A stretch of 56,640 nt of DNA from Blastococcus sp. (GTDB taxonomy: Bacteria; Actinomycetota; Actinomycetes; Mycobacteriales; Geodermatophilaceae): the NCBI GenBank assembly GCA_025465355.1, contig JAODNN010000113.1:1-56640 (forward strand). The letters are read 5' to 3'. The notes beneath the pieces were generated by a model. It was not told where the DNA came from. It did not search any database and saw only the letters and a list, made by a program, of their open reading frames with translations. The translations under genes were made by a program, and so were the position numbers. Of the stretch, positions 112 to 19,528 are shown piece after piece (within the stretch, counting starts at the first letter, position 1; each line of letters begins with the position of its first letter).

Positions 112-689
112 TGACCCTGCCCACCACCCCCAGGCCCACCACGCCCAGCTCGACCGTCGGGCCGTACCTCTCCATCGGGCTCACCTGGGGGGATGGCCCG
201 TACGCCGTCGAACCCGGCACGCCCGGCGCCTGCTGGCTGCGCGGCACGGTGTACGACGGCGCGGGCGACCCCGTACCCGACGCGATGGTCGAGACCTGGC
301 AGGCCGACCCGGACGGCCGGTTCGACCACCCGGACGACCCGCGCGGCGCGGTGGCGCGTCCCGGGTTCCGCGGCTTCGGCCGCTCGCACACCGTCGACGG
401 GGGCGAGTACGCCGTCCTCACCGTGAAGCCGGGCCGGCTCCCGGACGGCGACGGCGGCCTGCAGGCCCCGCACGTCGACGTCTCGGTGTTCGCCCGCGGG
501 CTGCTGGACCGGGTGGTCACCCGGATCTACTTCGCCGACGAGGCCGACGCCAACGCCGAGGACGCCGTGCTGCGCTCGCTGCCCGACGACGCTGCCCGGG
601 AGACCCTGATCGCCACGCCCACCGCGGACGGCTACCGGCTCGACATCCACCTCCAGGGCGACCGCGAGACGGTGTTCTTCGCCGTATGA
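111..689 (+). CDS. pcaG: Protocatechuate 3,4-dioxygenase alpha subunit
   Basis: This 192-aa protein is the structural partner of PcaH in the intradiol dioxygenase that opens protocatechuate to 3-carboxy-cis,cis-muconate in the cytoplasm. Family features are the N-terminal TVGPYLSIGL segment, a beta-rich core with PVPDAMVETWQAD, and a C-terminal RLDIHLQG stretch. The alpha subunit has the same fold as beta but does not bind catalytic iron. I chose the ATG at 111 because it overlaps the pcaH stop; the frame is open further upstream but would run into pcaH. Length is close to the usual 190-210 aa. Confidence 0.92.
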   Translation: MTLPTTPRPTTPSSTVGPYLSIGLTWGDGPYAVEPGTPGACWLRGTVYDGAGDPVPDAMVETWQADPDGRFDHPDDPRGAVARPGFRGFGRSHTVDGGEYAVLTVKPGRLPDGDGGLQAPHVDVSVFARGLLDRVVTRIYFADEADANAEDAVLRSLPDDAARETLIATPTADGYRLDIHLQGDRETVFFAV

Positions 690-726
690 GCAGTCCTGCC
701 CGGCAGCGCTCCGGTAGGAACAAGCC

Positions 727-2052
727 GTGACCAGCCTCTTCGACGGCACGTTCGCCCGCGGGGAAGCGGCGGCGGCCGTCTCCGACGCCGCCTGGTTCCG
801 CGCGCTGCTGGAGGTCGAGGCCGCCGTGAGCCGCGCGGCGGCCACGACCGGGCTGGTGCCGACGACGGCGGCCGACGCGGTGACCGCGGCCTGCGCCGAC
901 CCGGCAGGCCTGGACCTCGCCACGGTCGTGGCGCGGTCAGCTGACGCCGGGAACCCGGTGCCGCCGCTGGTGCGGGTGCTGCAGGCCGCGGTGGGGGAGC
1001 GGGACGCCGTCGCCGTGCACGTGGGCGCGACCAGCCAGGACGTCATGGACACCGCGCTGATGCTGCTGGCGAGGCGCGCCCTCGCGGCGATCCGGACCGA
1101 GCTCGCCGCGGCCGCCGACGCCGCGGCCGAGCTGGCCCGCAGTCACCGGAACGACGTCGTCATGGGCCGCACGCTCATGCAGCAGGCGCTGCCGACGACG
1201 TTCGGGCTCACCGCCGCCGGGTGGCTGACCGGCCTCGATGGCGCCCGAGCCCGGCTGCACGCCGTCGACGAGTCGCTGCCCGTGCAGTACGGCGGCGCGG
1301 TCGGCACGCTGGCCGCGAGCGGCGGGGCCGGTGTCGCGGTGCGCGACGCCCTCGCCGCCGAGCTGGGCCTCGCGACCACCCCCGTGGCCTGGCACACGAT
1401 GCGGCTCCCGGTCGCCGACCTCGCGGGCGCCCTTGGTGCGGCCGCCGGGGTGATCGCCACCGTCGCGCTCGACATCGTGCTGCTCGCCCAGACCGAGGTG
1501 GCCGAGGTCGCGGAGGGTGGCCCGGAGGGGCGCGGCGGTTCGTCGGCCATGCCGCACAAGCGCAACCCCGTCGCGGCCATCTCCGCCCGGGCCTGTGCGC
1601 GCCGCGCCCCCGGCCTGGTCGCCACCCTGATGGGCGCCATGGAACAGGAGCACGAGCGCGCCGCGGGCGCCTGGCACAGCGAGTGGCCGACGCTGACCGC
1701 ACTGCTCAGCACCGTCGGCTCGGCCGCCGCGTGGCTCACCGAGAGCCTCTCCGGCCTGCGCCCGGATCCCGGCCGGATGGCGGCGACCGTCCAGCTGTCG
1801 CGCGACCCCGAGCTGGCCGGTGCCCTGGCCGACGCGCTGGCCCCGACTCTGGGCCGGAGCGCAGCCCACGACGCCGCCGCCGACGCCGTGCGGGACGCGG
1901 CATCGACCGGCCGGCCGCTCGCCGAGGTGCTCGCCGCGCGAACGGATGTCCACGTCCCGCCCCTGGCCGGCACCGCGCCGGACGTCGGTGAGGCCGGCGT
2001 CCAGGTCGACGCAGCGCTGGCCGCGCACGCCGCCCGGGGGAGCACGCCATGA
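727..2052 (+). CDS. pcaB: 3-carboxy-cis,cis-muconate cycloisomerase
   Basis: This 441-aa enzyme of the fumarase/aspartase superfamily converts 3-carboxy-cis,cis-muconate to 4-carboxymuconolactone, the second step of protocatechuate breakdown. The superfamily signature GGSSAMPHKRNP lies at residues 270-281, and the N-terminal HVGATSQDVMDTA segment contributes to the shared active site. The GTG start at 727 follows a weak AGGAA ribosome site 38 bases after pcaG. The C-terminus overlaps pcaD by four bases (ATGA). Some actinobacterial PcaB proteins are longer than proteobacterial ones; this length is normal. Confidence 0.93.
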   Translation: MTSLFDGTFARGEAAAAVSDAAWFRALLEVEAAVSRAAATTGLVPTTAADAVTAACADPAGLDLATVVARSADAGNPVPPLVRVLQAAVGERDAVAVHVGATSQDVMDTALMLLARRALAAIRTELAAAADAAAELARSHRNDVVMGRTLMQQALPTTFGLTAAGWLTGLDGARARLHAVDESLPVQYGGAVGTLAASGGAGVAVRDALAAELGLATTPVAWHTMRLPVADLAGALGAAAGVIATVALDIVLLAQTEVAEVAEGGPEGRGGSSAMPHKRNPVAAISARACARRAPGLVATLMGAMEQEHERAAGAWHSEWPTLTALLSTVGSAAAWLTESLSGLRPDPGRMAATVQLSRDPELAGALADALAPTLGRSAAHDAAADAVRDAASTGRPLAEVLAARTDVHVPPLAGTAPDVGEAGVQVDAALAAHAARGSTP

Positions 2053-2855
2053 CCGCCGTCCCCGTCTCCTACCGCGCGGAGGGGGCGCTCGACGCGCCGG
2101 TGCTGCTGCTGGCCAACTCGCTCGGCGCCACCCGGGCCATGTGGGATGCGCAGGTACCGGCGCTGGCCGAGCGGTTCCGGGTGGTCACGTACGACGCCCG
2201 GGGGCACGGCGCCTCGCCGGTCCCCTCCGGGCCGTACTCGATCGACGACCTGGTGGACGACGTCGTCGCCGTGCTCGACGAACTCGGCGTGGAGCGGGCT
2301 CACCTCGCGGGGTTGTCGCTCGGGGGCATGACCGCGATGCGGCTCGCCGCCAGGGAGCCCGACCGCGTGGACCGGCTGGCGCTGCTGTGCACCGCCGTCC
2401 GGCTCGATGCCGATACCTACGCGGAGCGGGCGCGCACCGCGCGGACCGCGGGCACCGCCTCGTTCGCGGCCTCGGTCGTCAGCCGGTGGGTGACCCCGGG
2501 GTTCGCCGCCGAGCACCCCGACGTCGTCGCCGACCTCGAGGCGATGGTCGCCGCCACCCCCGACGAGGGCTATGCCGGCTGCGCCGAGGCGATCGCCGGC
2601 ATGGACCTGCGGGACGACCTGGCCGCCATCGCCGCGCCGACGCTCGTGATCGCCGGGGCGGATGACCCGGCGACGCCGCCGCCGCTCCTGCGGGACATCG
2701 CCGACGGCATCGCCGGTGCGCGTCTGCTGACCGTGGATTCAGCCGCCCACCTGGCCCCGGTCGAGCAGCCCGGCCGGATCACCGCGGCACTGCTCGCCCA
2801 TTTCGACGCGGCAGGTCCCGGCCGCACCGACCCCGCCGCCGGAGGCAGCCGATGA
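2049..2855 (+). CDS. pcaD: 3-oxoadipate enol-lactonase
   Basis: This 268-aa alpha/beta hydrolase opens 3-oxoadipate enol-lactone to 3-oxoadipate. The nucleophile elbow GLSLGG places the catalytic serine near residue 90. An acidic residue in AGADDPATPP and a histidine in SAAHLAPVEQP complete the triad. In many actinobacteria pcaD and pcaC are fused as pcaL; here they are separate genes joined only by a four-base overlap. It is also coupled to pcaB by ATGA. Function follows from the family plus pca context, since alpha/beta hydrolases are otherwise promiscuous. Confidence 0.92.
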   Translation: MTAVPVSYRAEGALDAPVLLLANSLGATRAMWDAQVPALAERFRVVTYDARGHGASPVPSGPYSIDDLVDDVVAVLDELGVERAHLAGLSLGGMTAMRLAAREPDRVDRLALLCTAVRLDADTYAERARTARTAGTASFAASVVSRWVTPGFAAEHPDVVADLEAMVAATPDEGYAGCAEAIAGMDLRDDLAAIAAPTLVIAGADDPATPPPLLRDIADGIAGARLLTVDSAAHLAPVEQPGRITAALLAHFDAAGPGRTDPAAGGSR

Positions 2856-3271
2856 CGACCCCCGTCGAACCGGAGAACGGCCCGACCACCGACGAGGAGC
2901 GCCGTGCCGCGGGGATGCGGACCCGCCGGGAGGTGCTGGGCGACGCCCACGTCGACCGGGCCGTCGCGGGCAGCACGCCGTTCACCGCCGGCTTCCAGGA
3001 CTTCATCACCCGCACCGCCTGGGGTGACGTGTGGCAGCGGCCCGGCCTGGCCCGCCGCGACCGCAGCCTGCTGACCCTGGCCATCACCGTCGCCCTGGGG
3101 CACTGGGACGAGTTCGCCCTGCACGTCCGGGCGGCCAAGAACAACGGGCTGACCGACGAGGAGATCGGTGAGGTTCTCCAGCACGCGGCGATCTACGCCG
3201 GTGTGCCCGCGGCCAACCACGCGTTCAAGGTCGCCGCCCCGATCCTCGAGGAGCTCCGCGGGCGGAAGTAA
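2852..3271 (+). CDS. pcaC: 4-carboxymuconolactone decarboxylase
   Basis: This 139-aa protein of the carboxymuconolactone decarboxylase family removes CO2 from 4-carboxymuconolactone to give 3-oxoadipate enol-lactone, the PcaD substrate. The AhpD-like helical fold is indicated by RSLLTLAITVALG and EVLQHAAIYAGVPAANHA. As usual for true PcaC rather than AhpD peroxidases, there is no CxxC redox motif. It is the last gene of the pca operon, overlaps pcaD by four bases, and is followed by a convergent hairpin region before pgi. Confidence 0.93.
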   Translation: MTTPVEPENGPTTDEERRAAGMRTRREVLGDAHVDRAVAGSTPFTAGFQDFITRTAWGDVWQRPGLARRDRSLLTLAITVALGHWDEFALHVRAAKNNGLTDEEIGEVLQHAAIYAGVPAANHAFKVAAPILEELRGRK

Positions 3272-3282
3272 GGTCCGTCCGG

Positions 3283-3343
3283 CCTGCCTGCAGGGTCCCG
3301 CCGCGAGCGTGCGAGCGGAGGGGGCAGGGGAGGTCCTTTCTCA
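3283..3343. terminator. Convergent-end GC hairpin repeat between pcaC and pgi
   Basis: The 69 bases between the convergent pcaC and pgi stops contain CCTGC and GCAGG arms with further partial G/C pairing, followed on the plus strand by CCTTTCTCAG. The TCA in that tail is the pgi stop codon. A related layout ending in the same CTTTCTCAG occurs before scoB at 11671-11730. I read it as a two-way transcription terminator. The pairing here is imperfect, so the structure is less certain than at the second copy. Confidence 0.45.
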
Positions 3344-4972
3344 GGCCGGGCGGCCGCGTTCCTCGCGCAGCAGCCGCACCAGCGCGTTGGTGGAGGAGTC
3401 CGAGTCGTAGTCCGGGGCCGACTCGCTCAGCAGCTTGGGCGCGAGCTGGGAGGCCATGACCTTGCCGAGCTCGACCCCCCACTGGTCGAAGGAGTTGATC
3501 CCCCAGACGACACCCTGGGTGAAGACCCGGTGCTCGTAGGTGGCGACCAGCTGGCCGAGCACGCTCGGCGTCAGCTTCGGCGCGATGATCGCGTTGGACG
3601 GGTGGTTGCCCGGCATCACCTTGTGCGGGACGACGTCGGGCGCGGTGCCCTCGGCGGCGACCTCCTCGGCCGTCCGGCCGAAGGCCAGCGCGCGCGGCTG
3701 GGCGAGGAAGTTGGCCAGCAAGAGGTCGTGCATGTCGTCGAGGTCGTGATGGGGCTGGGCGAAGGCCAGGAAGTCGGCGGGCACCAGCACCGTCCCCTGG
3801 TGCAGGAGTTGGTAGAAGGCGTGCTGGCCGTTGGTGCCGGGTTCCCCCCACACGATCTCGCCGGTGGGGACGTCCACCGCTGTGCCGTCGCGGGTCACCG
3901 ACTTGCCGTTGGACTCCATGCACAACTGCTGCAGGTAGGCGGGGAAGCGGGAGAGGTACTCCGCGTAGGGCAGCACCGCGTGCGTCTGCGCGCCGAAGAA
4001 GTCGATGTACCAGAGGGAGATCAGCCCGAGCAGGGCCGGCAGGTTCTGCTCGTACGGGGCGGTGCGGAAGTGCTCGTCGACCGTGTGGAACCCGTCGAGC
4101 ATCTCGCGGAAATGCGCCGGTCCGATCGCGACCATGAGCGAGAGCCCGATCGCTGACGTGTAGGAGTACCGGCCGCCGACCCAGTCCCAGAAACCGAACA
4201 TGTTGTCGGTGTCGATGCCGAATTCGGCGACCTTCTCGGCGTTGGTCGACACGGCCACGAAGTGCTTGGCGACGGCCTTGTCGTCGCCGCCGAGCCCGTC
4301 GAGGAGCCAGCGACGGGCCTCCCTCGCGTTGGTCAGCGTCTCCTGGGTGGTGAAGGTCTTCGATGCGACGATGAAGAGGGTGCTCGCAGGGTCCAGGTCG
4401 CGCGTTGCCTCGAAGAGGTCGGTCGGGTCGACGTTGGAGACGAACCGGAAGGTCAGTGACCGGTCGGAGTAGTCGCGTAGCGCCAGATAGGCCATCGCCG
4501 GACCCAGGTCGGAGCCGCCGATGCCGATGTTGACCACGGCCCGGATCCGCTCGCCGGTGTGCCCGGTCCACTCGCCGCTGCGCACGCGGTCCGCGAAAGC
4601 CGCCATGCGGTCGAGAACCTCGTGGACCTCGTGCCGCACGTCCTGCCCGTCGACCTCGAGGCCGCTGGTCGCGGGGTCCCGCAGGGCGACGTGCAGGACG
4701 GCGCGGTCCTCGGTGGTGTTGATGTGCCGGCCGCGGAACATCGCCTCGGTCTGCTCGCGAAGCCCGGCCCGCTCCGCCAGGGCCACGAGCAGCCGGATCG
4801 TCTCGGGGGTGAGCCGGTTCTTCGAGTAGTCGAGGTACAGATCGCCGGCGCGGCAGGTGAGTTGCTCGCCCCGGGCGGGATCCTCGGCGAACAGGTCCCG
4901 GAGATGGCGGTCGCGCACCTCCCGGTGGTGCTCGGCCAGTGCCTGCCATTCCGAGCTCTCGCTGATTCCCAC
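3341..4972 (-). CDS. pgi: Glucose-6-phosphate isomerase
   Basis: This 543-aa cytoplasmic isomerase interconverts glucose 6-phosphate and fructose 6-phosphate. Recognisable segments are [32 protein letters not shown], the [13 protein letters not shown] segment and the C-terminal GVELGKVMA region of the PGI signature. The frame stays open to 5179, but I placed the start at the GTG at 4972 because a near-perfect AGGAGG sits a few bases upstream and the resulting length matches the family. It stands alone with a glutamine amidotransferase gene upstream, not in the transketolase-transaldolase-pgi-zwf cluster common in actinobacteria. Confidence 0.93.
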
Positions 4973-5045
4973 GGGGTCCTCCTGTTCGATGCCGACGTCC
5001 GCCAGCTTTCCGCAGGACGGCGCCGCCGACGACCCCGGGGCCAGC

Positions 5046-5804
5046 TCAGGCGCGAACGCGGAGGCCGCCGCCGGTTCCGACGGTGGTCTCGAGGGTCCGA
5101 CGCGCGATGGTGAGCAGACTGCCGTTGGCCAGCTCCTGCCAGTTGCGGCCCCAGCCGCTCGAGGCGACGACGACCGCATCGTCGGTGACCCGGTACCGGA
5201 GGTCGTAGTACTCCGGATCGCCGTCCTCGGTCGGGCTGCCGGCGTCGAACCGGCAGTAGGCGTAGAGCCTGTCCGGGGTCAGCAGCAGGCAGTTGAGGCT
5301 GGTGGACGGGGTGGTGGCGGCGATGTCGTCCGCCGTCGTCAGCAGGGCCTCCTCCGGGGTGGCGCCGTCCCGGAGCAGCTGGGTGACGGCGAGGAAGTAG
5401 CGCTCGCTGTCGGTGTCTCCTCGCCGTTGCCGGCGGGCGCGGTCGGACAGCAGCGCGTCGAGCGCGGCGGGCGGGCGGATCGAGCCGTTGTGCGCGAAGG
5501 CCACGCGGCGGTCGGTGAACGGATGCGTGTTGTCCCGCCCGATGTCCAGGCCGAGCGTGGCCCACCGCAGGTGCACCAGGCCGGCGTCGGTCCGGCGACG
5601 GTGCGCCCAGCGGCTGAACCGAGGGCTCGTCCGGGCGGCGTCCGGGCGCTTGAGGACGGCGACCCGCCGGCGGGTGCTCCGCGCGACGCCCCAGCCGTCG
5701 CCGTGCCGGGCGGACAGCTCGGTGAAGTCGGTCAGGTCGTCCTCGCCCAGCAGCTCGGACAGGGTGGTGGGGACGCGGGTGGTCCAGCCCAGGAGTCGGC
5801 ACAT
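5046..5804 (-). CDS. Class II glutamine amidotransferase (YafJ/EgtC-like)
   Basis: The 252-aa protein starts Met-Cys-Arg-Leu-Leu-Gly; Cys2 is the N-terminal nucleophile of class II (Ntn) glutamine amidotransferases once Met is removed. DGWGVAR near residue 40 and [10 protein letters not shown] in the middle are further conserved active-site segments. There is no synthetase domain, so it resembles stand-alone YafJ-type proteins, whose substrate is unknown; EgtC is another possibility, but no other ergothioneine genes are nearby. The start at 5804 is fixed by the need for Cys2. It lies 73 bases upstream of pgi on the same strand and is divergent from vanA. Confidence 0.85.
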
Positions 5805-5931
5805 GCGGCGAACTGCTCCCTCGGGGAATGCGGAGGGGTGGTGCGGCTCCTGACGATGCCCGCCGTCCGCCCGGAATCCGGGGATGCGATGTCGCTCCGC
5901 GTGCCGTCCGCCCCGACGCCCGGCACGTTTG

Positions 5932-5950
5932 CCTTCCGTGTGGCGGAAGG
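5932..5950. promoter_or_regulatory. Palindromic operator candidate upstream of vanA
   Basis: CCTTCCG and CGGAAGG form a perfect 7-base inverted repeat with a 5-base spacer, about 70 bases before the vanA start. It sits in the 213-base gap between the divergent amidotransferase gene and vanA. The size and symmetry fit an IclR-type binding site, and an IclR regulator is encoded downstream of vanB. The pairing of this site with that regulator is an inference. No convincing -35/-10 pair was recognised next to it. Confidence 0.45.
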
Positions 5951-6017
5951 TTGGTGCACGGAGAGGGGTGACGGCAGTCACTCTCGGGCAAGGCTGGAAT
6001 CCCAGGGAGGCAGGGCA

Positions 6018-7079
6018 ATGACGTCCATCGTCCGGAACCAGTGGTACGTCGCGGCCTACGGCCGCGAGGTCGGCCGCGAGCTGTTCAGCCGCACTGTCTG
6101 CGGCGAGTCGATCCTGTTCTGGCGCACCGAGGCCGGGGACGTCACGGCGATGAGCGACCGCTGCGTGCACCGCCGGTTCCCGCTCTCGCAGGCGCCCAGC
6201 CACCTGGTGGGCGACGCGGTGGTCTGCGGCTACCACGGCTTCACCTACGGGGCCGACGGCGGCTGCGTCGCGGTGCCGGGCCAGACCCGAGTACCGCGAA
6301 CGGCGCGCCTGAAGGCCTATCCGGTCGTCGAGCAGGACAGCTTCGTGTGGGTCTTCATCGGCGAGGCGGAGAAGGCCGAGGTGACGGCGATCCCGCGCGC
6401 TCCGTGGCTGGACCAGGAGGGCTGGACGACGGTGTCCGGCATGGAGCCGCTGGCCGCGCGCGCCAGCCTGCTCGTCGACAACCTCATGGACCTCTCGCAC
6501 GAGACGTACCTGCACGGCGGCTACATCGGCACGCCGGAGGTCGCCGAGACGCCGATCACGACTGAGGTCGACGACGAGGCCGGCATCGTCTACGTCAGCC
6601 GGCACATGGCCGACGCCGAGTGCCCGCCGTTCTACGCGACGAGCACCGGCCTCCAGGGCCGGATCACCCGCTGGCAGGACATCGAGTTCGTCCCGCCGTG
6701 CCTCTACAAGCTGCACAGCCGGATCGCGCCGGTCGGCAGCGTGCCCAACCCGGACGGCACGGATCCGGACGCCTTCCACGTCGAGGTCGTGTACGCGATC
6801 ACCCCGGAGACGGAGAGCTCGACGCACGATTTCTGGGCGGTGGCCCGCGACTTCGCCCTGGACGACGAGGGGGTGTCGGCCTTCCTGCGCGAGAACAACC
6901 GCACCGTCGTCCTGCAGGACGTGGTGGCCCTTGATGTGCTCGAGCAGGTGCTCGCCGGCGAGCCCGACGGGTACCAGGAGCTCTCGATCAACATCGACAC
7001 CGGCGGGCTGGCCGCCCGGCGGTTGATCGCCCGCCTGGCCGGCGAGGGCGCCGGGGTCGCACCGGCCGTCGGCCGATGA
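6018..7079 (+). CDS. vanA: Vanillate O-demethylase oxygenase subunit (Rieske type)
   Basis: This 353-aa terminal oxygenase demethylates vanillate to protocatechuate and formaldehyde, using electrons from VanB. The Rieske 2Fe-2S ligands are Cys49-x-His51 and Cys70-x2-His73. The mononuclear iron site is seen as DNLMDLSHETYLH with His161 and His166. The ATG at 6018 follows AGGGAGG; the open frame extends much further upstream but without family similarity. The product feeds directly into the pca genes at the left of the window. Related aromatic O-demethylases share this architecture, so the exact methoxy substrate is inferred. Confidence 0.88.
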   Translation: MTSIVRNQWYVAAYGREVGRELFSRTVCGESILFWRTEAGDVTAMSDRCVHRRFPLSQAPSHLVGDAVVCGYHGFTYGADGGCVAVPGQTRVPRTARLKAYPVVEQDSFVWVFIGEAEKAEVTAIPRAPWLDQEGWTTVSGMEPLAARASLLVDNLMDLSHETYLHGGYIGTPEVAETPITTEVDDEAGIVYVSRHMADAECPPFYATSTGLQGRITRWQDIEFVPPCLYKLHSRIAPVGSVPNPDGTDPDAFHVEVVYAITPETESSTHDFWAVARDFALDDEGVSAFLRENNRTVVLQDVVALDVLEQVLAGEPDGYQELSINIDTGGLAARRLIARLAGEGAGVAPAVGR

Positions 7080-7336
7080 ACGACATGCTCGGCGGCGAGC
7101 GGGTGCTCCGGGTCAACTGGCTGCCCGGCTCGGACCGGCTCGTGGGCCGGTGCCACTGCGGCGCCGAGACCGAGGCCGAGGATCCCGTGCAGATGTGGGA
7201 GTGGCTGTTGGCCCATCCCGACCACTCGGCCGGCGGTGCCGGCTCGCCGGATCCGGTGGGCGAGCTGCCCCCGCCACCCGCGCACGTGATCACCGACCCG
7301 GCGGTGGTCCGAAGCCGAACGCCCGTCCTCGTCTGA
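7076..7336 (+). CDS. Unknown 86-aa Cys/His protein coupled to vanA
   Basis: I do not recognise this small protein. It overlaps the vanA stop by four bases, so it is almost certainly translated with it, and it precedes vanB. The middle has GRCHCG followed by a tryptophan-rich MWEWLLAHPDH segment, giving two cysteines and three histidines that could bind a metal. The C-terminal third is rich in proline and looks disordered. There is no signal peptide or membrane segment. Its position between the two halves of an oxygenase suggests an accessory or assembly role, but that is only inference from context. Confidence 0.75.
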   Translation: MNDMLGGERVLRVNWLPGSDRLVGRCHCGAETEAEDPVQMWEWLLAHPDHSAGGAGSPDPVGELPPPPAHVITDPAVVRSRTPVLV

Positions 7337-7358
7337 GGGCAGCCCCGGCCGCCCCGGA

Positions 7359-7395
7359 GGACTTTTCCCACGAAGTCTCCCGGGACTTTTCCCAC
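7359..7395. repeat. Direct repeat GGACTTTTCCCAC upstream of vanB
   Basis: The 13-mer GGACTTTTCCCAC occurs at 7359-7371 and again at 7383-7395, 24 bases start to start, in the short gap before vanB. Such AT-containing repeats stand out against the GC-rich background. The spacing is close to two helical turns, so it could be a paired protein-binding site or part of an internal promoter. The core ACTTTTCC also occurs inverted inside vanB near 8172, which may be chance. Confidence 0.6.
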
Positions 7396-7426
7396 AGTCC
7401 CGCTCTCGTCCGGAAGGAGCATCGCC

Positions 7427-8386
7427 GTGACCAGCACCTCCGACGAGGTGGACCTGCGCCTGCGGGTCGCCCGCCGGGTCGACGGCGCCGAAGGCGTCGT
7501 CGTCCTCTACCTGCGCGATCCGGACGGCGCGGATCTGCCGCCCTGGACGGCGGGGGCGCACGTCGACCTGCGGCTGCCCGGCGAGCTGACCCGTCAGTAC
7601 TCGCTGTGCGGTGACCCGGCCGAGCGGGACGTCTGGCGGATCGGCGTGTTGCGCGAGCCGGAGAGCCGCGGCGGCTCGGCGCACGTGCACGAGGAGCTGG
7701 TCGAGGGCGCCGAGGTCGAGGTCCGCGGCCCCCGCAACCACTTCCCGCTGGTGGCCGCCCCGCGGTACGTGTTCGTCGCCGGCGGCATCGGCATCACTCC
7801 GATCCTGCCGATGATCACCGCCGCGGTCGCCGCCGGCGCGGCCTGGGAGCTGCACTACGGCGGGCGCAGCCGCCGCTCGATGGCGTTCCTGGAGTCGCTG
7901 GAGCGGCTCAGCGGCCACCTCACGGTGCACCCCCAGGACGAGGTCGGCCTCATCGACCTCGACGCCATCCTCGGCACGCCCCGCCCGGACACGCTGGTCT
8001 ACTGTTGCGGCCCCGAGCCGCTGCTGCAGGCGGTGGAGCAGCGCTGCGCCGACTGGCCGGAGGGGTCGCTGCACCTGGAGCGGTTCGCCCCCAAGGACGT
8101 CGGGGAGCCCGTGCTCACCGGCGCGTTCGAGGTGGAGCTGAGCCTGAGCGGCTTGTCGCTGACGGTGCCTCCGGAAAAGTCTGTGCTGCAGGTCGTGGAG
8201 GAGGCCGCGGTCAGCGTGCTGTCCTCGTGCACGGAAGGGACGTGCGGAACGTGCGAGACGACGGTGCTGGCGGGCCAGGTCGATCACCGGGACTCGCTGC
8301 TCACGCCGGCCGAGCAGGCGGCGAACGACACGATGTTCATCTGCGTGTCCCGCGCCGCCTGCCCGAAACTGGTGCTCGAGCTCTGA
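7427..8386 (+). CDS. vanB: Vanillate O-demethylase reductase subunit
   Basis: This 319-aa phthalate dioxygenase reductase-type protein passes electrons from NAD(P)H to VanA. The order is an FMN-binding beta barrel (RQYSLCGDP), an NAD-binding domain (FVAGGIGITPILPM, then YCCGPEPLL), and a C-terminal plant-type 2Fe-2S ferredoxin domain with CTEGTCGTC and a fourth cysteine in MFICVSRA. The GTG at 7427 follows GAAGGAG. It is separated from vanA by the small unknown gene and a pair of direct repeats. Confidence 0.88.
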   Translation: MTSTSDEVDLRLRVARRVDGAEGVVVLYLRDPDGADLPPWTAGAHVDLRLPGELTRQYSLCGDPAERDVWRIGVLREPESRGGSAHVHEELVEGAEVEVRGPRNHFPLVAAPRYVFVAGGIGITPILPMITAAVAAGAAWELHYGGRSRRSMAFLESLERLSGHLTVHPQDEVGLIDLDAILGTPRPDTLVYCCGPEPLLQAVEQRCADWPEGSLHLERFAPKDVGEPVLTGAFEVELSLSGLSLTVPPEKSVLQVVEEAAVSVLSSCTEGTCGTCETTVLAGQVDHRDSLLTPAEQAANDTMFICVSRAACPKLVLEL

Positions 8387-8412
8387 CCGGCCGCCAGACG
8401 GCGGGAGGCAAG

Positions 8413-9141
8413 GTGCTCGCCGTCCTCGGGGCGTTCACCCGCGATCGGCCGGCCCTCACGCTGTCCGACCTGGCCCGGGCCGTCGACGTGCCGCTGTCCA
8501 CCGCGCACCGGCTGGTCGCCGAGCTCAGCGACTGGGGGGCCTTGGAGCGCGACGGCGACGGCCGCTACCGGATCGGCCTGCGGATCTGGGAGCTCGGTGC
8601 GCTCGCGCCGCGTGGGCTGGGGCTTCGGGAGGCCGCGCTGCCGTTCATGGAGGACCTGTACGAGGTCACCCACGAGAACGTGCAGCTCGCCGTCCGGGAC
8701 GACGACGAGGTCGTGTTCGTCGAGCGGTTCGCCGGCCGGGACGCCGTCGCCGTGCTGACCCAGGTGGGTGGCCGCTTCGCCCTCGCGCCGACGGGGGTGG
8801 GGCTGGTTCTGCTGGCGCACGCCCCGCTGGAGGTGCAGGAGCGGGTGCTGGCCGGCCCGCAGCGCCGCTACACCCCGTTCACGATCACCGATCCGCGCCA
8901 GCTGCGGCGGGTGCTCGCCGACGTGCGCCGGACCGGCGTGGCGATCAGCGACCGCCAGGTCACCACGGACGCCGTCTCGGTGGCCGCGCCGATCGAGGTG
9001 GCCGGCTCCGTGGTCGCGGCGCTGTCCGTCGTCGTCCGGGGCAGCTCACCGGCCGCCGTCCGCACCATGACTCCCGGCGTACGCGCCGCCGCCCGCGGGA
9101 TCTCCCGCACCCTGGACCGCAGTTCCGCCCCACCGAGCTGA
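8413..9141 (+). CDS. IclR-family transcriptional regulator (van cluster)
   Basis: The protein has an N-terminal winged helix (LTLSDLARAVDVPLSTAHRLVAEL) and a C-terminal IclR effector-binding domain. It is the likely regulator of the vanillate genes between which it sits. Start choice is uncertain: GTG at 8413 has GGGAGG four bases upstream and gives 242 aa but trims the first helix slightly. A CTG at 8383 overlapping the vanB stop would add ten residues. The palindrome at 5932-5950 is a candidate target. The effector is unknown; vanillate or protocatechuate would fit. Confidence 0.82.
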   Translation: MLAVLGAFTRDRPALTLSDLARAVDVPLSTAHRLVAELSDWGALERDGDGRYRIGLRIWELGALAPRGLGLREAALPFMEDLYEVTHENVQLAVRDDDEVVFVERFAGRDAVAVLTQVGGRFALAPTGVGLVLLAHAPLEVQERVLAGPQRRYTPFTITDPRQLRRVLADVRRTGVAISDRQVTTDAVSVAAPIEVAGSVVAALSVVVRGSSPAAVRTMTPGVRAAARGISRTLDRSSAPPS

Positions 9142-9202
9142 GCCACCCGGCCTCAGCGCCCATCCGGACCGCAGCTACGCGGCCGGCAACGAAGGAGACG
9201 AC

Positions 9203-10663
9203 ATGGCACTTCTGGACGACGGCGCCTGGCAGGGCAAGGTCTGGACCGGCTCGTGGGCCGACGGCAGCGGAGGCACCTACGACGCTGTGGAGCCGGCGAC
9301 CGGCGATGTGCTCGGTCAGGTGGGGAAGGCGACCACGGACGACGTCCACACCGCAGCCGTGCGGGCCGTCGAGGCGCAGCGATCCTGGGCGGCGCTGCCC
9401 TTCGAGGAGCGCGCGGCCGTTCTGCGCCGGGCCGGTGACGTGCTGATGGCCAACAGCGAGGAGATCAAGGGCTGGCTGGCCCGGGAGTCCGGGGCGATCC
9501 AGCCGTTCGGCGACTTCCAGGTGCACACCAGCGCTCAGGAGTGTTACGAGGCCTCGGCCCTGCCGTCGCATCCCTACGGCGAGCTGCTGCGCTCGGGTTC
9601 GCCGCGGCTGTCCTTCGCGCGGCGGGTGCCGGTCGGGGTCGTCGGCGTGATCTCGCCGTTCAACGTGCCGACCATCCTGGCGATCCGTGCTGTGGCCCCG
9701 GCGCTGGCCCTGGGCAACGCGGTGATCCTCAAGCCCGACCCCCGCACGGCGATCAGCGGGGGTGCGATGTTCGCTCGCGTCTTCGAGGAGGCTGGGCTGC
9801 CCGCCGGCGTCCTGCAGGTGCTCAACGGTGGCGCCGACATCGGGGAGGCGCTCGTCGTCGAGCCCGCCGTCCGGGTCATCGCCTTCACCGGGTCCACGAA
9901 GGCCGGGCGGGCGGTCGGGGCGCTCGCCGGACAGCATCTGAAGCGGGCCCATCTGGAACTCGGCGGGAACTCCGCGCTGATCGTGCTGCCGGACGTCGAC
10001 GTGACCGCGGCCGCGTCGGTGGGGGCGTGGGGCACGTTCTCCCACTCAGGCCAGATCTGCATGGCGACGTCGCGGCACCTGGTGCACGCCGACATCGCGG
10101 AGGAGTACACCGAAGTGCTGACGGAGAAGGTGGAGAAGCTGCCGGTCGGTGACCCGTTCCGCGAGCAGGTGGCGATGGGTCCGCTGATCGACGCCGGCCA
10201 GCGTGACCGGGTGCACGGCCTGGTGACGGCGTCCGTCGACGGCGGGGCCACGGTGCGCACCGGCGGCACCTTCGAGGGGCTCTTCTACCGGCCGACGGTG
10301 CTGTCCGGCGTCCCGGTCGAGGCTCCGGCGTACCGGGAGGAGATCTTCGGCCCGGTGGCGCCGGTGACGTCGTTCACCTCGCTGGACGAGGTCGTGGAGC
10401 TGGCGAGGGGCACCGAGTACGGCCTGTCGCTGGGCATCCTCACGCCGGACGTCTACGCCGGCCTCGAGTTGGCCGAGCGCATCCCGTCGGGGCTGGTGCA
10501 CATCAACGACCAGACGGTGAACGACGAGGCCGTCGCGCCGTTCGGCGGCGTCGGCGCCTCGGGCACCGGCTCCCGGCACGGCGGCCCGCAGGCCAACATC
10601 GAGGCGTTCACCGAGACCCAGTGGGTGACCGTCCGCGGCGACCTCCCGGCCTACCCCTTCTGA
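9203..10663 (+). CDS. Aromatic aldehyde (vanillin/benzaldehyde-type) dehydrogenase
   Basis: This 486-aa NAD(P)-dependent aldehyde dehydrogenase has the general base Glu252 in LELGGNSA and the nucleophile Cys286 in HSGQICMA. The cofactor segment is VISPFNVPTILAIRAVAPALALGN (shown only in part: ISPFNVPTILAIR). Overall it resembles the benzaldehyde/vanillin dehydrogenase group, which oxidises vanillin to vanillate, the VanAB substrate. GAAGGAG precedes the ATG. It lies 61 bases after the IclR gene in the same direction. Substrate assignment depends on context, because aldehyde dehydrogenases are broad. Confidence 0.82.
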   Translation: MALLDDGAWQGKVWTGSWADGSGGTYDAVEPATGDVLGQVGKATTDDVHTAAVRAVEAQRSWAALPFEERAAVLRRAGDVLMANSEEIKGWLARESGAIQPFGDFQVHTSAQECYEASALPSHPYGELLRSGSPRLSFARRVPVGVVGVISPFNVPTILAIRAVAPALALGNAVILKPDPRTAISGGAMFARVFEEAGLPAGVLQVLNGGADIGEALVVEPAVRVIAFTGSTKAGRAVGALAGQHLKRAHLELGGNSALIVLPDVDVTAAASVGAWGTFSHSGQICMATSRHLVHADIAEEYTEVLTEKVEKLPVGDPFREQVAMGPLIDAGQRDRVHGLVTASVDGGATVRTGGTFEGLFYRPTVLSGVPVEAPAYREEIFGPVAPVTSFTSLDEVVELARGTEYGLSLGILTPDVYAGLELAERIPSGLVHINDQTVNDEAVAPFGGVGASGTGSRHGGPQANIEAFTETQWVTVRGDLPAYPF

Positions 10664-14833: not shown

Positions 14834-15181
14834 TCAGTGCAGGTGGACCTGCCAGTCGGGAGGCACGCGGCCGCGCGGCCCGGGGACCGGTTGGTCGAGG
14901 GGATGGTGCTCCGGCGGGGCCAGCGGAGGGCCCGCGAGGGGCTGCTCGACGGTGAAGTCCCAGAACCAGTCCTCGCCGGGTTCGTAGCTCCGGACGATCG
15001 GGTGTCCCGAGGTGAACGCGTGCCCCCGGGCGTGCCGGCTGGGCGAGGAGTCGCAGCAGCCGACGTGACCGCACGCGGCGCACCGGCGGAGATGGAGCCA
15101 CCAGCCTCCCGTGGCGTCGCAGTCGATGCATCCCGGTCCGCTCGGCGGCACCGTCGGGTCGATCGCCACCGCGGCGGTCAT
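14834..15181 (-). CDS. UBP-type zinc finger protein
   Basis: This 115-aa protein is essentially one ZnF-UBP domain. CIDC near residue 18, CAACGHVGCCDSS and RHARGHAFTSGHPI supply the Cys/His ligands, and WFWDFTVEQ closes the domain. In eukaryotes this domain reads the free C-terminus of ubiquitin; the role of bacterial versions is unknown. It ends nine bases from the convergent gabD stop. It lies upstream of, and opposite to, the receiver/TrxR-like and kinase genes, which makes it a candidate partner of that module. The proline-rich tail is likely disordered. Confidence 0.85.
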   Translation of the reverse strand: MTAAVAIDPTVPPSGPGCIDCDATGGWWLHLRRCAACGHVGCCDSSPSRHARGHAFTSGHPIVRSYEPGEDWFWDFTVEQPLAGPPLAPPEHHPLDQPVPGPRGRVPPDWQVHLH

Positions 15182-15265
15182 CGGTCGACCGCGCAGAAAG
15201 GTTCTTGCGGGGTGTATATCGCGGTTACGGTCAACTCGTCACCTCGAAACCGGAGGGAGACCGGC

Positions 15266-15721
15266 ATGGAACCCGGCATCTACGGTACGGACGGCACCGA
15301 CCCGGAGGAAGCCTCCGGCGTCCTGGAACCGGAAGACACCCTCGACGGCGCGCGTGGCGTGCGAGACGTGCTGGACACCGGCTGGTCGCCGGCGGAGCGG
15401 CCCTGGGCGGTCGACGACTGGGGAACCACCGAGGCCGAGGAGTCCGCGGGCGAGAGCCTCGGCGGCAGGCTGGCCCGGGAGATCCCCGAGTTCGACGGCG
15501 ACGGCGTCGGCGACGGGCTCGGCGACGCGTCCGACACCGACGGTGAGCTCCTCGACGACGAGGTGGGGGACGCGCGCGCCGGGCGCCTGGTCGACAGCGG
15601 CGACGGCGGGACCGAGGACGCCGACGATGAGCTGTTCGCCAGGGACGAAGGCATCGACGGGGCGGCCGCCTCGGCGGAGGAGGCCGCGGTGCACATCGTC
15701 AGGGAGCCCGACCGGGGCTGA
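15266..15721 (+). CDS. DUF5709-type acidic protein
   Basis: This 151-aa, strongly acidic, Gly/Asp-rich protein fits the DUF5709 family known from actinobacteria. The pattern includes PEEASGVLEPEDTLDG, VLDTGWSPAERPWAVDDWGT and a C-terminal AASAEEAAVHIV. Its function is not known. No membrane segment or signal peptide is visible, and most of the chain looks disordered. GGAGGGAGA lies just before the ATG at 15266. It stands 116 bases before the receiver/TrxR fusion gene in the same direction. Confidence 0.78.
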   Translation: MEPGIYGTDGTDPEEASGVLEPEDTLDGARGVRDVLDTGWSPAERPWAVDDWGTTEAEESAGESLGGRLAREIPEFDGDGVGDGLGDASDTDGELLDDEVGDARAGRLVDSGDGGTEDADDELFARDEGIDGAAASAEEAAVHIVREPDRG

Positions 15722-15837
15722 TCGAGGGTCCCCCTGCCGCCGTTCCGCGACTAGCGTTGGCCCAGCAGTGCAATGGCTCACCGCCGCCGTCGGGCCTCGC
15801 CAGGTAGTCCGGCGATCACCGGTCAGGAGGCGGCCCT

Positions 15838-17496
15838 ATGGGCAAGCCCGTCCTGCTCAGCGTGGACGACGACCCCGGCGTCTCCCGGGCCGTCGCCCGT
15901 GACCTGCGCCGTCAGTACGGCGCGGACTTCCGGGTGCTGCGCGCATCGTCGGGCCGGGAGGCGCTCGAGGCACTGCGAGAGCTGAAGCTCCGTGGTGACA
16001 CCGTGGCCGCGTTCCTGGCCGACTACCGCATGCCGCAGATGAACGGCATCGAGTTCCTCGAGCAGGCGATGGACCTGTTCCCGCGTGCGCGGCGGGCGCT
16101 GCTCACCGCCTACGCCGACACCGAGGCCGCCATTCAGGCGATCAACATCGTGGACGTCGACTTCTACCTGCTCAAGCCGTGGGACCCGCCGGACGAGAAG
16201 CTCTATCCGGTCGTCGACCAGATGATCCAGGCCTGGCGGGACAGCCCGGAGGCGGTGGTCGACGACGTCAAGCTCATCGGGCACCGCTGGTCGGCGCCGT
16301 CGTTCCGGGCCCGCGACCTCCTGGCCCGTAACGCCGTGCCCTACCGCTGGTACAGCGTGGATGAGCCCGAGGGCCAGCGGCTGCTCGCCGCGGCCGATGC
16401 CGGTCGGGACGACGTGCCGGTGGTGATCACCCCCGACGGGGTCGTCCTGCGGTCGCCTACCGAGACGGAGCTCGCCGGGGTGGTGGGGCTCAGCGTCGAG
16501 CCCCAGGCGGACTTCTACGACCTGGTCGTGGTCGGTGGGGGGCCGGCCGGGCTGGGCGCGGCGGTGTACGGCGCCTCGGAAGGGCTCCGGACCGTGCTTG
16601 TGGAACGGGAGGCCACCGGGGGCCAGGCCGGTCAGAGCAGCCGGATCGAGAACTACCTCGGCTTCCCGGACGGGGTCTCCGGGGGGCAACTCGCCGAGCG
16701 GGCGCGGCGGCAGGCGGCGAAGTTCGGTGCCGAGCTGCTGCTGACGCGTGACTGCGTCGCCCTCGAGGCGCACGGGTCGAAGCGGGTGCTGCGCTTCGCC
16801 GACGGCAGCACGATCGCCGCGCACGCCGTCGTCCTCGCGACGGGAGTGTCGTACCGCAGCCTGGGCGTGGCCGGCGCGGACGACCTGACCGGGCGCGGCG
16901 TCTACTACGGGTCGGCGATGACCGAGGCGGCCGAGTGCGCCGACGAGAAGGTGTTCATCGTCGGGGGCGCGAACTCCGCCGGTCAGGCGGCGGCGTACTT
17001 CGCCCGGTACGCGAGTTCGGTCCACGTCCTCGTCCGCGGTCCGTCGCTCGAGGCGTCCATGTCGCACTACCTGGTCGAGCAGCTCGACGCGATCGCCAAC
17101 GTGCACGTCCATACCTGCACCCAGGTCGCCGAGGCGCACGGCACCGACCACCTGGAGCAGGTCACCCTCCGGGACGCCCGCACGGGTGAGCAGTCGACCT
17201 ATCCGGCCAGCCACCTGTTCGTCTTCATCGGCGGATTCCCGCGCACGCAGTGGCTGGACGGCGTCGTGGTCCGAGACGACCGGGGGTTCATCCCCACGGG
17301 CCCGAGCCTGCTCGAGGACGGCCGACGGCCGCACGGCTGGACCCTCGACCGTGACCCGTACTTCCTCGAGTCGAGCCTGCCCGGTGTGTTCGTCGCCGGT
17401 GACGCTCGGGCCGAGTCGGTGAAACGGGTGGCCTCGGCGGTCGGCGAGGGCGCCATGGCGGTGACCCTGGTGCACCGCTACCTGGGAGAGAGATGA
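15838..17496 (+). CDS. Fused response regulator receiver / thioredoxin reductase-like protein lacking CxxC
   Basis: This 552-aa protein has three parts. Residues 1-120 are a receiver domain with acidic pocket Asp10-12, phosphoacceptor Asp62 in LADYRMP, Thr90 and Lys113. Residues 145-222 look like a thioredoxin/glutaredoxin fold without redox cysteines (VPYRWYSVD, then VPVVITPDGVVLRSPT). Residues 226-552 are a thioredoxin reductase-like flavoprotein with FAD loop GGGPAGLG (233-240), NADPH loop GGANSAGQAA (376-385) and FAD closing motif GDARAESVKRVASAVGEG (521-538). Where TrxR has CATC, around residue 358, the sequence is YYGSAMTEA, so classic disulfide chemistry is impossible. The next gene, a histidine kinase, overlaps by four bases. 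Confidence 0.9.
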   Translation: MGKPVLLSVDDDPGVSRAVARDLRRQYGADFRVLRASSGREALEALRELKLRGDTVAAFLADYRMPQMNGIEFLEQAMDLFPRARRALLTAYADTEAAIQAINIVDVDFYLLKPWDPPDEKLYPVVDQMIQAWRDSPEAVVDDVKLIGHRWSAPSFRARDLLARNAVPYRWYSVDEPEGQRLLAAADAGRDDVPVVITPDGVVLRSPTETELAGVVGLSVEPQADFYDLVVVGGGPAGLGAAVYGASEGLRTVLVEREATGGQAGQSSRIENYLGFPDGVSGGQLAERARRQAAKFGAELLLTRDCVALEAHGSKRVLRFADGSTIAAHAVVLATGVSYRSLGVAGADDLTGRGVYYGSAMTEAAECADEKVFIVGGANSAGQAAAYFARYASSVHVLVRGPSLEASMSHYLVEQLDAIANVHVHTCTQVAEAHGTDHLEQVTLRDARTGEQSTYPASHLFVFIGGFPRTQWLDGVVVRDDRGFIPTGPSLLEDGRRPHGWTLDRDPYFLESSLPGVFVAGDARAESVKRVASAVGEGAMAVTLVHRYLGER

Positions 17497-18971
17497 CCAC
17501 GACCGAGCACAGGCTGGGGCCCGAGGAACTGCGCGAGCTCTTCCTCTTCGAGAACCTGACCGAGGCCCAGCTGGAGTGGGTGGCGGCCAACGGCGACGTC
17601 GTCGACGTCGCGGCGGGGACGGAGGTGTCGGTCGAGGGCGAGCCGGCCGACTGCTTCCACGTCCTGCTCTCGGGCGAGATCAGCATGTCCCGCATGGTCG
17701 GCGGCAGCGAGGTGGAGACCGTCCGGACGTCGTATCGCGGGGCGTACTCGGGTGCCGTCCAGTTCTACTTCGAGGACCGGCTCGAGCAGAAGTATCCCGC
17801 GACCGTCCGGGCGGTGGCCGACAGCCGCTTCCTCGCGCTGCCCGCCCAGCCCTTCGCCGCGGTGTTCCGGCAGTGGTACCCGATGGCGGTTCACCTGCTC
17901 GAGGGGCTGTTTCTCGGCAGTCGCCAGTCCAACGAGCTCGTCGGGCAGCGGGAGCGGTTGCTGGCGCTGGGCAAGCTGACCGCGGGGCTGACCCACGAGC
18001 TGAACAACCCCGCCGCGGCGGCTGCGCGGGCCACCTCGGCGCTGCGTGAACGGTTCGCCGGCATGCGGCACAAGCTCGCGATGCTCTCCGAGGGCACGAT
18101 CGACGCCGGGATGCTGCGGGCGCTCACCGGGCTCCAGGAGGAGTTCGTCGCACGGATCGGCGGCAGTGGGGAGCTGTCGGCACTGGAGCGGTCGGACCGC
18201 GAGGACGATCTCGGTGACTGGCTCGAGGGCCGCGACGTGACGCAGCCGTGGGAGCTGGCCGGGATCTTCGTCGCCGCCGGCCTCGGCCCCGCCGAGCTCG
18301 ATCGTGTGGCGGACACCGTGGCGCCGTCGTTCCTCGAACCGGCCCTGCGCTGGCTGGCCTACACGGTGGAGACCGAGCTGCTGCTGGCCGAGATCGCGGA
18401 CAGCACGGAACGGATCTCCTCCCTCGTCGACGCCGCGAAGCAGTACTCGCAGATGGACCGGACGCCGCACCAGCCGACCGATCTGCACGCCGGGCTCGAT
18501 GCCACCCTGGTCATGCTCAGCGCCAAGATCGGCCCGGACGTCACCGTCGTGAAGGACTATGACCGGAGCCTCCCGAAGGTCCCGGCCTACGCCGGCGAGC
18601 TCAACCAGGTGTGGACGAACCTCATCCACAACGCCCTCGATGCCATGGCGGGGGAGGGGACGCTCACCCTGCGCACGGGCGTGGACGGCGACTGCGCGCT
18701 CGTCGAGATCGGCGACACCGGGCCCGGCATCCCGAAGGATCTGCGCCGGCGGGTGTTCGAGCCCTTCTTCACCACCAAGCCCGTCGGGCAGGGGACCGGT
18801 CTGGGTCTGGACGTGTCGTGGCGGATCGTCGTCAAGCGGCACGGCGGGGACCTGCGGGTCTCCTCGACGCCGGGGGACACCCGCTTCCAGGTCCTGCTGC
18901 CGCTCGAGGTGCCGGTGGGCGACCCTGTCCGCGTGCCGGTGGGCGACCCTGCCCGCGCGGAGCCGGCGTGA
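17493..18971 (+). CDS. Sensor histidine kinase with cyclic nucleotide-binding-like domain
   Basis: This 492-aa cytoplasmic kinase starts with a cNMP-binding beta barrel (about residues 17-135), in which the usual phosphate-binding cassette is not clear. Next come a dimerisation helix with His168 in LTAGLTHELNNPAA and a divergent middle region. The C-terminal HATPase domain shows NLIHNALDAM, DTGPGIP, FEPFFTTK and GTGLGLD. No membrane segments are seen, so the signal is internal. The ATGA overlap with the receiver/TrxR fusion marks it as that protein's cognate kinase. The C-terminal tail contains a 24-base tandem repeat. Confidence 0.9.
   Translation: MTTTEHRLGPEELRELFLFENLTEAQLEWVAANGDVVDVAAGTEVSVEGEPADCFHVLLSGEISMSRMVGGSEVETVRTSYRGAYSGAVQFYFEDRLEQKYPATVRAVADSRFLALPAQPFAAVFRQWYPMAVHLLEGLFLGSRQSNELVGQRERLLALGKLTAGLTHELNNPAAAAARATSALRERFAGMRHKLAMLSEGTIDAGMLRALTGLQEEFVARIGGSGELSALERSDREDDLGDWLEGRDVTQPWELAGIFVAAGLGPAELDRVADTVAPSFLEPALRWLAYTVETELLLAEIADSTERISSLVDAAKQYSQMDRTPHQPTDLHAGLDATLVMLSAKIGPDVTVVKDYDRSLPKVPAYAGELNQVWTNLIHNALDAMAGEGTLTLRTGVDGDCALVEIGDTGPGIPKDLRRRVFEPFFTTKPVGQGTGLGLDVSWRIVVKRHGGDLRVSSTPGDTRFQVLLPLEVPVGDPVRVPVGDPARAEPA
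18909..18956 (+). repeat. 24-base tandem repeat in the kinase tail
   Basis: Two copies of a 24-base unit beginning GTGCCGGTGGGCGACCCTG encode VPVGDPVR and VPVGDPAR at the end of the histidine kinase. The in-frame duplication lengthens a proline-rich tail and probably arose by slippage. Confidence 0.8.
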
Positions 18972-19008: not shown

Positions 19009-19434
19009 CTACAGCAGTGCGCGGCAGACGCCCGTCATGTCGACGAGCCCGACCAGGCTTCCGTCGCGCACGACCGGCAGGTGGTGCACATGCCCGGAGA
19101 GCATCAGCTCGGCCGCCTGGCGCAGCTCGGTGCCGACGTCGACGGTGAGCGGCTCGGCGGTGACGACCTGGTTGATCCGGGTGTCGCCCAGGTCCCGACC
19201 GTCGGCCACCGCCTGGGTGATGTCGGTGTCGGTGAGGATGGCGACCGGCCGACGGCTCCCGTCGTCGGTGGTGACGATCAGGGCGCTCGCGCCGTCCCGC
19301 TTCATCAGGTAGGCGGCGGCCGCCAGGTGTGCGGTGGGCTCGACCGTCGTCGTCGGCGGTCCCATCAGCTGTTCGACGGTCACTCGCGCGGGGGCGGCCG
19401 TGCCGGTGGTTTCCTGAGGACTGGTTGCGGACAT
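19009..19434 (-). CDS. CBS-domain protein
   Basis: This 141-aa protein consists of a tandem pair of CBS domains: VTVEQLMGPPTTTVEP to VAILTDTDITQAV, then INQVVTAEPLTVDV to LVGLVDMTGVCRALL. Such stand-alone Bateman modules bind adenine nucleotides and act as sensors for partner proteins. The start at 19434 (MSATSP) was chosen because GGAGAGGGG lies upstream and the longer frame adds only low-complexity sequence. It is convergent with the histidine kinase (37-base gap) and divergent from the following unknown gene. Confidence 0.85.
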   Translation of the reverse strand: MSATSPQETTGTAAPARVTVEQLMGPPTTTVEPTAHLAAAAYLMKRDGASALIVTTDDGSRRPVAILTDTDITQAVADGRDLGDTRINQVVTAEPLTVDVGTELRQAAELMLSGHVHHLPVVRDGSLVGLVDMTGVCRALL

Positions 19435-19528
19435 GTCCGCCCCTCTCCGAGGGTCTGACTGTGGTGCCGGCTCAACACCCGATGCCGGACGAGTGTTCCA
19501 GCCGATCGCTGCGGGAAGGAAGCCCTGC

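Follow-up and report, generated by a model that had tools for sequence, protein, structure and literature searches.

In the stretch of Blastococcus sp. DNA analysed here (contig JAODNN010000113.1, 56,640 nucleotides in full length; hereafter the window), a protein that joins a receiver domain, a glutaredoxin (Grx)-like domain and a flavoprotein domain of the thioredoxin reductase (TrxR) type is encoded directly in front of a soluble histidine kinase with a CNB fold, in the company of a gene for a small UBP-type zinc finger protein. By type, kinase and fusion belong with the two-component systems, with an output that is, unusually, an enzyme. The gene set is widespread and apparently undescribed in the literature searched; a description of such a module was not found in openly licensed (CC0/CC BY/CC BY-SA) PubMed Central articles. 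Its architecture, its conservation, the co-occurrence of its genes and the retention of key residues are read from sequence, and on this footing we consider it probable that phosphotransfer from the kinase to the receiver controls an NAD(P)H-dependent flavoenzyme, with the UBP protein as adaptor.

Results

Kinase and fusion as a pair

The fusion gene (15838..17496, + strand; 552 amino acids) is defined by Pfam matches, a TIGR01292 match below cut-off, a 38-row alignment and a structure model. Its receiver domain (15838..16239; amino acids 1-134; PF00072, 48.3 bits) carries the acceptor Asp62 (16021-16023) and the other key residues D10, D11, T90 and K113, and is followed by a Grx/GST-N-like middle domain (16267..16482; amino acids 144-215) and the TrxR-like FAD/NAD(P) domain (16501..17493; amino acids 222-552; Pyr_redox_2, 113.8 bits). 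The kinase gene (17493..18971, + strand; 492 amino acids) was assigned with Pfam and encodes a CNB fold (17604-17870; cNMP_binding, 41.8 bits), the phospho-acceptor His168 (17994-17996) and an HATPase domain (18597-18908; HATPase_c, 82.3 bits). The phospho-acceptor histidine, present in all 33 aligned kinases (of 111 kinase stretches), and the HATPase_c score identify it as a histidine kinase; the HisKA match reaches 21.2 bits, under the cut-off of 26.9. The stop of the fusion and the start of the kinase share four bases (ATGA, 17493-17496), as an earlier note on this DNA had observed, and the four genes listed in that note, which are those for the UBP finger, a DUF5709 protein, the fusion and the kinase, are indeed present as open frames of the Pfam families named.

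Relatives were covered by a neighbourhood sample of 61 genomes and the phylum by a sample of 198 genomes. Hidden Markov model scans of loci gave 143 TrxR-like loci, reduced to 141 once duplicates were merged, which comprise 128 with a full receiver, nine with a CNB domain, three partial ones and one unassigned. A kinase lies within 3.5 kb on the same strand in 98 of the 128 full receiver fusions, downstream of the fusion in 97 of these pairs and less than 100 bases away in 94; since many loci were chosen for containing a UBP gene or the fusion, the 98 are no random sample. The pairs occur in Actinomycetota, Deinococcota, Cyanobacteriota and Pseudomonadota, some of them on plasmids of Deinococcus, Nostoc, Gloeothece, Caballeronia and Paraburkholderia. 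Two other genes intervene in Nostoc edaphicum (L175), where the kinase is 2.9 kb off. The recurring neighbourhood that the earlier note had named beforehand as its test is thus there, with a kinase adjoining 98 distinct fusions.

The receiver residues D-D-D-T-K are intact in all 98 kinase-paired fusions, the window's included, versus none of the 27 full receiver fusions that have no kinase despite adequate flank (the other three have too little flank). In these unpaired fusions the decay of the receiver site takes many forms. At the level of residues, intact receivers beside a kinase are what a working kinase-receiver pair predicts, and the proposal that kinase and fusion form a functional pair is borne out in its conservation part.

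Further arrangements were seen around such pairs. On Caballeronia and Paraburkholderia plasmids (L176, L179) a CNB-fold kinase stands on both sides of one receiver-flavoprotein, where two kinases may feed one receiver, and a Deinococcus plasmid (L174) has a second kinase about 2.6 kb upstream. The fusion lies behind glgX and an AGE-family epimerase gene on three cyanobacterial plasmids (L175, L177, L180), and a low-temperature-requirement-A gene follows downstream in L175 and L180 as well as in Deinococcus L174. The window's own genome holds a third flavoprotein copy (C93; L034:8093-9748) that has lost the receiver acceptor Asp and has no kinase or UBP gene nearby; orphan copies of this kind, with decayed receivers, group as one clade.

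For the kinase sensor, the description "cNMP-fold" given in the earlier note stands as to the fold and fails as to the two nucleotide-binding residues of CRP. We take E72 and R82 of CRP to be the Glu and Arg of the phosphate-binding cassette that contact the cyclic nucleotide; the window kinase has A88 and Y101 at these positions, and among the 33 aligned kinases the Glu is kept in nine and the Arg in five, in an alignment that is gappy there. With both cassette residues replaced in the window kinase, a cyclic nucleotide was rejected as its obvious ligand.

A flavoprotein without CxxC

The flavoprotein part had been called TrxR-like, which is right for its FAD/NAD(P) Rossmann fold, that of thioredoxin reductase, and wrong for the catalytic CxxC: 140 of the 141 distinct loci have no cysteine at this site. 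It reads G-S-A-M in the window (16909-16920), and GSAL, GSAM, GAAx, AATx and similar, with zero cysteines, in 111 rows that are not deduplicated and include copies of the window. With the same handling, all eight canonical reductase controls show CATC, C46 of the window's own genome included. Given the missing CxxC, controls that keep CATC and a TIGR01292 score of 212.2 bits against a cut-off of 343.45, an identity as ordinary thioredoxin reductase was rejected. In the HRRxxxR motif for NADPH, as we read it, R400 is invariant in the 38-row alignment and the second Arg is replaced in the window.

The exception (L215, genome G045) reads CATC, has neither a receiver nor a CNB domain and is a canonical reductase; its row was excluded from the CNB-type counts in relatives. 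This flavoprotein is 41% identical to the window's while keeping CATC and may lie where true reductases give way to the CxxC-less family. The phylum flavoprotein set excludes seven rows at 37-39% identity, and the five of these that were inspected (G062, G131, G152, G174, G238) all read CATC.

The middle domain is where the earlier note needs correction: a receiver/TrxR-like fusion does exist, and the part between, taken for thioredoxin-like, is Grx/GST-N-like without a CxxC. The window has S-A-P-S at the Grx C-x-x-C position, other rows SARS, SAPS and similar, with a lone Cys in four and a CxxC in 0/111. Its Pfam matches are sub-threshold (GST_N_2, E 0.027; Glutaredoxin, E 0.033), and in the structure model (predicted local distance difference test score, pLDDT, 82.6) its predicted order, beta-alpha-beta-alpha-beta-beta-alpha, is that of Grx. 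Because P194 and L162-A163-R164 are invariant in 38 rows, this domain is no decaying relic. With both dithiol centres missing, electrons must exit the flavin by another route, for which a single cysteine that is often kept in the TrxR-like domain, Cys367 (16936-16938), may be of interest. Judged by its residues, the flavoprotein cannot run its chemistry through the usual CxxC, and this is the sole claim on its chemistry that we make.

In the model, amino acids 222-552 adopt the TrxR fold, with a root-mean-square deviation (rmsd) of 2.6 to 5mh4, which is labelled flavin-reducing, and of 8.4 and 6.4 to the flavin-oxidising-labelled 5mjk and 5w4c. According to the accessible part of the source, the flavin-oxidising pose is the one that places the CxxC over the flavin (PMC6262447); going by this one model, an enzyme without CxxC would have no need of that pose. 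Two lost dithiol sites in a protein that retains its FAD and nucleotide folds, and a model nearest to the flavin-reducing structure, would also suit a non-enzymatic flavoprotein, a redox sensor of the NAD(P)H/flavin type that signals back to the kinase or a partner, the receiver reporting its state. We regard such a sensor as improbable, since a receiver normally takes a signal rather than giving one and since a CNB-type relative is reported to be catalytically active (PMC6544261).

The one-component form

In nine loci a CNB domain takes the place of the receiver and no kinase is adjacent; seven of them have a UBP gene within 5 kb. In the window's own genome (C64; L033:7391-12966, - strand), clpB, a zinc-ribbon thioredoxin gene, a UBP gene and a CNB-type flavoprotein gene form one run, the order of which is identical in Rhodococcus pyridinivorans (L226); L209, L210 and L212 hold clusters of the same genes, and L213 has the CNB-type gene with clpB and the thioredoxin gene, no UBP gene being found in the stretch covered. 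In our own reading, one switch has been built in a one-component and a two-component version. Kinases and CNB-type flavoproteins match each other in their CNB domains, which shows no special kinship, because the CNB superfamily is large and the profile included its own hits.

Plasmid records annotate the members of the gene set as "FAD-dependent oxidoreductase", "ATP-binding protein" and "UBP-type zinc finger". Some CNB forms are named "thioredoxin-disulfide reductase" there, which the missing CxxC makes questionable.

The UBP zinc finger

The UBP gene (14834..15181, - strand; 115 amino acids) is divergent from the other genes of the module. Its score for zf-UBP (PF02148), 46.8 bits against a cut-off of 22.7, and its fold place the product among the UBP fingers. 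C18, C21, C37, C42, C43, H50 and H54 (window numbering) are invariant in a 25-row alignment of bacterial fingers, H39 is nearly so, and one clade shares a conserved GRVPxDW tail at the C-terminus. The CGR of USP5, whose R221 is presumably the Arg holding the ubiquitin carboxylate, aligns with CGH in the window protein, which does not have this Arg.

The UBP gene is a recurrent third gene, as had been suggested. Within the 61 relatives, one lies within 5 kb of 28 of the 35 kinase-type fusions, the window's included (the kinase was seen in 32 of these, the other three stretches being cut off or not retrieved), and of six of the seven CNB-type genes, and near none of the 23 decayed-receiver fusions or the four fusions of a divergent receiver group (a kinase was found for 3/4). 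Conversely, 35 of the 69 UBP genes of these relatives are within 5 kb of a flavoprotein-family gene; by genome, 37 have both, ten UBP only, two the flavoprotein only and 12 neither. In one locus (L256, genome G083), the UBP gene behind the kinase is split across two frames and missing from the family-search list; as it went uncounted, the adjacency counts are slightly low. The 198 phylum genomes divide into 31 with both, eight with the flavoprotein only, 14 with UBP only and 145 with neither (odds ratio 40 by Fisher's test, p 3e-18, no correction for kinship). Of their 60 UBP genes, 14 have a flavoprotein-family gene within 5 kb against 0.17 expected, two of the 14 in the window's own genome. 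The association of UBP and flavoprotein is beyond chance.

A UBP-centred set, the best 80 UBP loci in GTDB genomes and as such biased towards window-like fingers, has 39 loci with a flavoprotein in the flank, namely 37 of the receiver type with kinase, one of the CNB type and one partial. Most often these loci run fusion, kinase, UBP along a single strand, and the UBP gene is divergent in close relatives of the window. Streptomyces fungicidicus and Tsukamurella have fusion, kinase and UBP in series with four-base overlaps each. Among plasmids, a UBP gene is adjacent in six of 17 loci retrieved around the flavoprotein, and of seven retrieved around UBP three have a full and one a broken flavoprotein. 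In one case (L219, genome G155) UBP forms the C-terminus of the kinase itself, with a second UBP gene on the fusion's other side; when this kinase-UBP junction was compared with 148 genomes of the class, none of the matches listed spanned both parts in full and free of stops, and further fusions may exist.

Neighbouring genes

The acidic DUF5709 gene (15266..15721, + strand; PF18970, 66.5 bits against a cut-off of 27.5) ends 116 bases before the fusion. The earlier note had listed it beside the other three genes; it occurs in 0/144 loci (L094-L237) and, among the relatives' loci (flanks of about 1.5 kb), in the window's own genus only, so that it was rejected as a component and is a bystander outside the module. 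Neighbouring CBS-domain and aldehyde-dehydrogenase genes, each present in 3/144 loci, were likewise rejected. The former encodes a two-CBS-domain protein (19009-19437, - strand), convergent with the kinase across a 37-base gap. Farther off (24-10663) lies what is by eye an aromatic-acid cluster, with genes for protocatechuate dioxygenase, muconate cycloisomerase, enol-lactonase, a Rieske demethylase with its reductase and an aldehyde dehydrogenase, into which a glucose-6-phosphate isomerase gene is inserted.

Discussion

The mechanism that we infer, from phosphotransfer and control of activity to the flavoprotein's chemistry and the binding role of UBP, would run as follows. The soluble kinase, with its CNB-fold sensor, would autophosphorylate on His168 and pass the phosphate to Asp62 in the receiver of the fusion, and phosphorylation of the receiver would alter the NAD(P)H-dependent electron transfer of the flavoprotein, from which electrons might exit directly from the flavin to a substrate or by way of Cys367. 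The UBP adaptor would bring the C-terminal tail of a partner to the kinase or the flavoprotein. In the sister form, likewise beside UBP, a CNB domain fused directly to the flavoprotein would provide the same switch in one component.

A number of observations weigh against this mechanism. Data on phosphotransfer or enzyme activity for the receiver type were not found in openly licensed PubMed Central literature. The kinase-less fusions form a single clade in a tree of 95 rows, by which kinase loss and receiver decay are one event, not 27; a test of independence on the tree yields one pair only, and hence there is no p-value for the link between receiver and kinase. Furthermore, two of the three fusions with short flank have intact receiver residues.

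The next of these points concerns chemistry. A CNB-TrxR that is 87% identical to a Cupriavidus metallidurans protein (ATII-TrxR) is described, in the accessible part of the report, as binding FAD and reducing 5,5'-dithiobis-(2-nitrobenzoic acid) (DTNB) and a thioredoxin, with a Km of 5.2 uM for NADPH and 4.2 uM for NADH, and its redox cysteines are named as Cys206-Cys223 and Cys376-Cys467, no CxxC among them (PMC6544261). As far as that account goes, thiol chemistry may persist where the CxxC is missing, and one-component CNB-type relatives may, by analogy, carry out such chemistry; CNB-type genes do stand with clpB and a thioredoxin gene in the window's own genome and in five other loci.

The flavoprotein could therefore still be a disulfide reductase, acting on thioredoxin or a low-molecular-weight disulfide via Cys367 and the flavin, which would make it a kinase-regulated thiol reductase. 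Single-cysteine TrxR-fold enzymes are thought to work through one Cys and the flavin, and Cys367 is present in 96 of 112 rows; the reported activity of ATII-TrxR and the clusters with clpB and thioredoxin point the same way. After deduplication, however, Cys367 is kept in only 100 of the 141 loci, L222, L223 and L224 also having none, and tblastn with one thioredoxin query found no thioredoxin in the kinase-type flanks, many of which span about 1.5 kb and in which distant thioredoxins may escape such a query. Moreover, the enzyme of PMC6544261 is of the CNB type, not the receiver type, and a carry-over of host TrxR in that preparation is conceivable. We give this explanation serious weight, at somewhat short of an even chance.

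The last group of points concerns UBP. In 41 of the best 80 GTDB UBP loci the available flank holds no flavoprotein, and the flavoprotein is missing from 14 of the 45 UBP genomes of the phylum and ten of the 47 among relatives, so UBP has other uses. UBP also stands beside a decayed-receiver gene (L218) and beside domain-less flavoproteins (L224, L225) and is thus not strictly tied to the kinase. In L042 and L123:10352-12226 the finger ends a long protein that by eye resembles sodium/proton antiporters; two Deinococcus plasmid UBP matches fall in genes annotated as cation:proton antiporter. Plasmid records of Variovorax, Nostoc and Arthrobacter have UBP with no such flavoprotein within 4 kb.

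All this would fit a UBP that is an independent small zinc protein, riding in the same stress operons without contact to kinase or flavoprotein. Yet its link to the flavoprotein persists across 11 different arrangements by flavoprotein type, presence of the kinase, strand and side, and the two stand together in Actinomycetota, alpha- and beta-proteobacteria and Gemmatimonadota, as well as in Bacteroidota with a broken flavoprotein; once, UBP is fused to the kinase. No alternative partner emerged either: clustering the neighbours of the 41 flavoprotein-less loci, made noisy by shadow frames, gave none in more than 9/41 apart from UBP itself and antisense frames, and an SRPBCC-like gene within an antisense cluster is found in 7/41. 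An unconnected UBP thus appears unlikely to us.

We return to the kinase-controlled flavoenzyme with UBP as adaptor, which may be one case of something broader. Tentatively, and with more doubt than confidence, we envisage a signalling family in which a dithiol-free TrxR-fold flavoenzyme is switched either by a CNB sensor or by a CNB-kinase and receiver, with UBP as the shared adaptor that would recognise free protein C-termini and link redox to protein quality control. The latter link is suggested by clpB and the thioredoxin gene in some CNB-type clusters.

Known systems resemble the module in parts. Low-molecular-weight thioredoxin reductase and AhpF (TIGR01292, TIGR03140) are the nearest named families, from which the window family differs in having no CxxC in either the flavoprotein or the Grx-like domain; the window protein, moreover, has a receiver in front, and its TIGR01292 score is under the cut-off. 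ATII-TrxR, at 552 amino acids and without a named CxxC, is by its description a one-component form joining CNB and TrxR-like flavoprotein; its CNB domain is fused directly, in place of a receiver and a separate kinase, and the main text on it, as far as available, mentions UBP nowhere (PMC6544261). Response regulators whose output domain is an enzyme are a further known kind; among them, the same joining of receiver and thioredoxin reductase appears in archaeal metagenomes, in the accessible part of that source as a predicted domain only and with no mention of kinase pairing, a missing CxxC or UBP (PMC5847659). As for bacterial UBP fingers, RPA1320 (PDB 2IDA) was deposited as a hypothetical protein, and short zf-UBP proteins of bacteria are listed as hypothetical in what is accessible of PMC2602986.

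In summary, if the proposed mechanism is true, phosphorelays ending in a redox enzyme, not on DNA, operate in many bacteria of at least four phyla, and there is a partner to test for the bacterial UBP finger. Should the reading of UBP as the adaptor of a wider family be true as well, it would provide the first functional context for bacterial UBP fingers. The one- and two-component forms, finally, offer a clean case for how receivers replace direct sensors.

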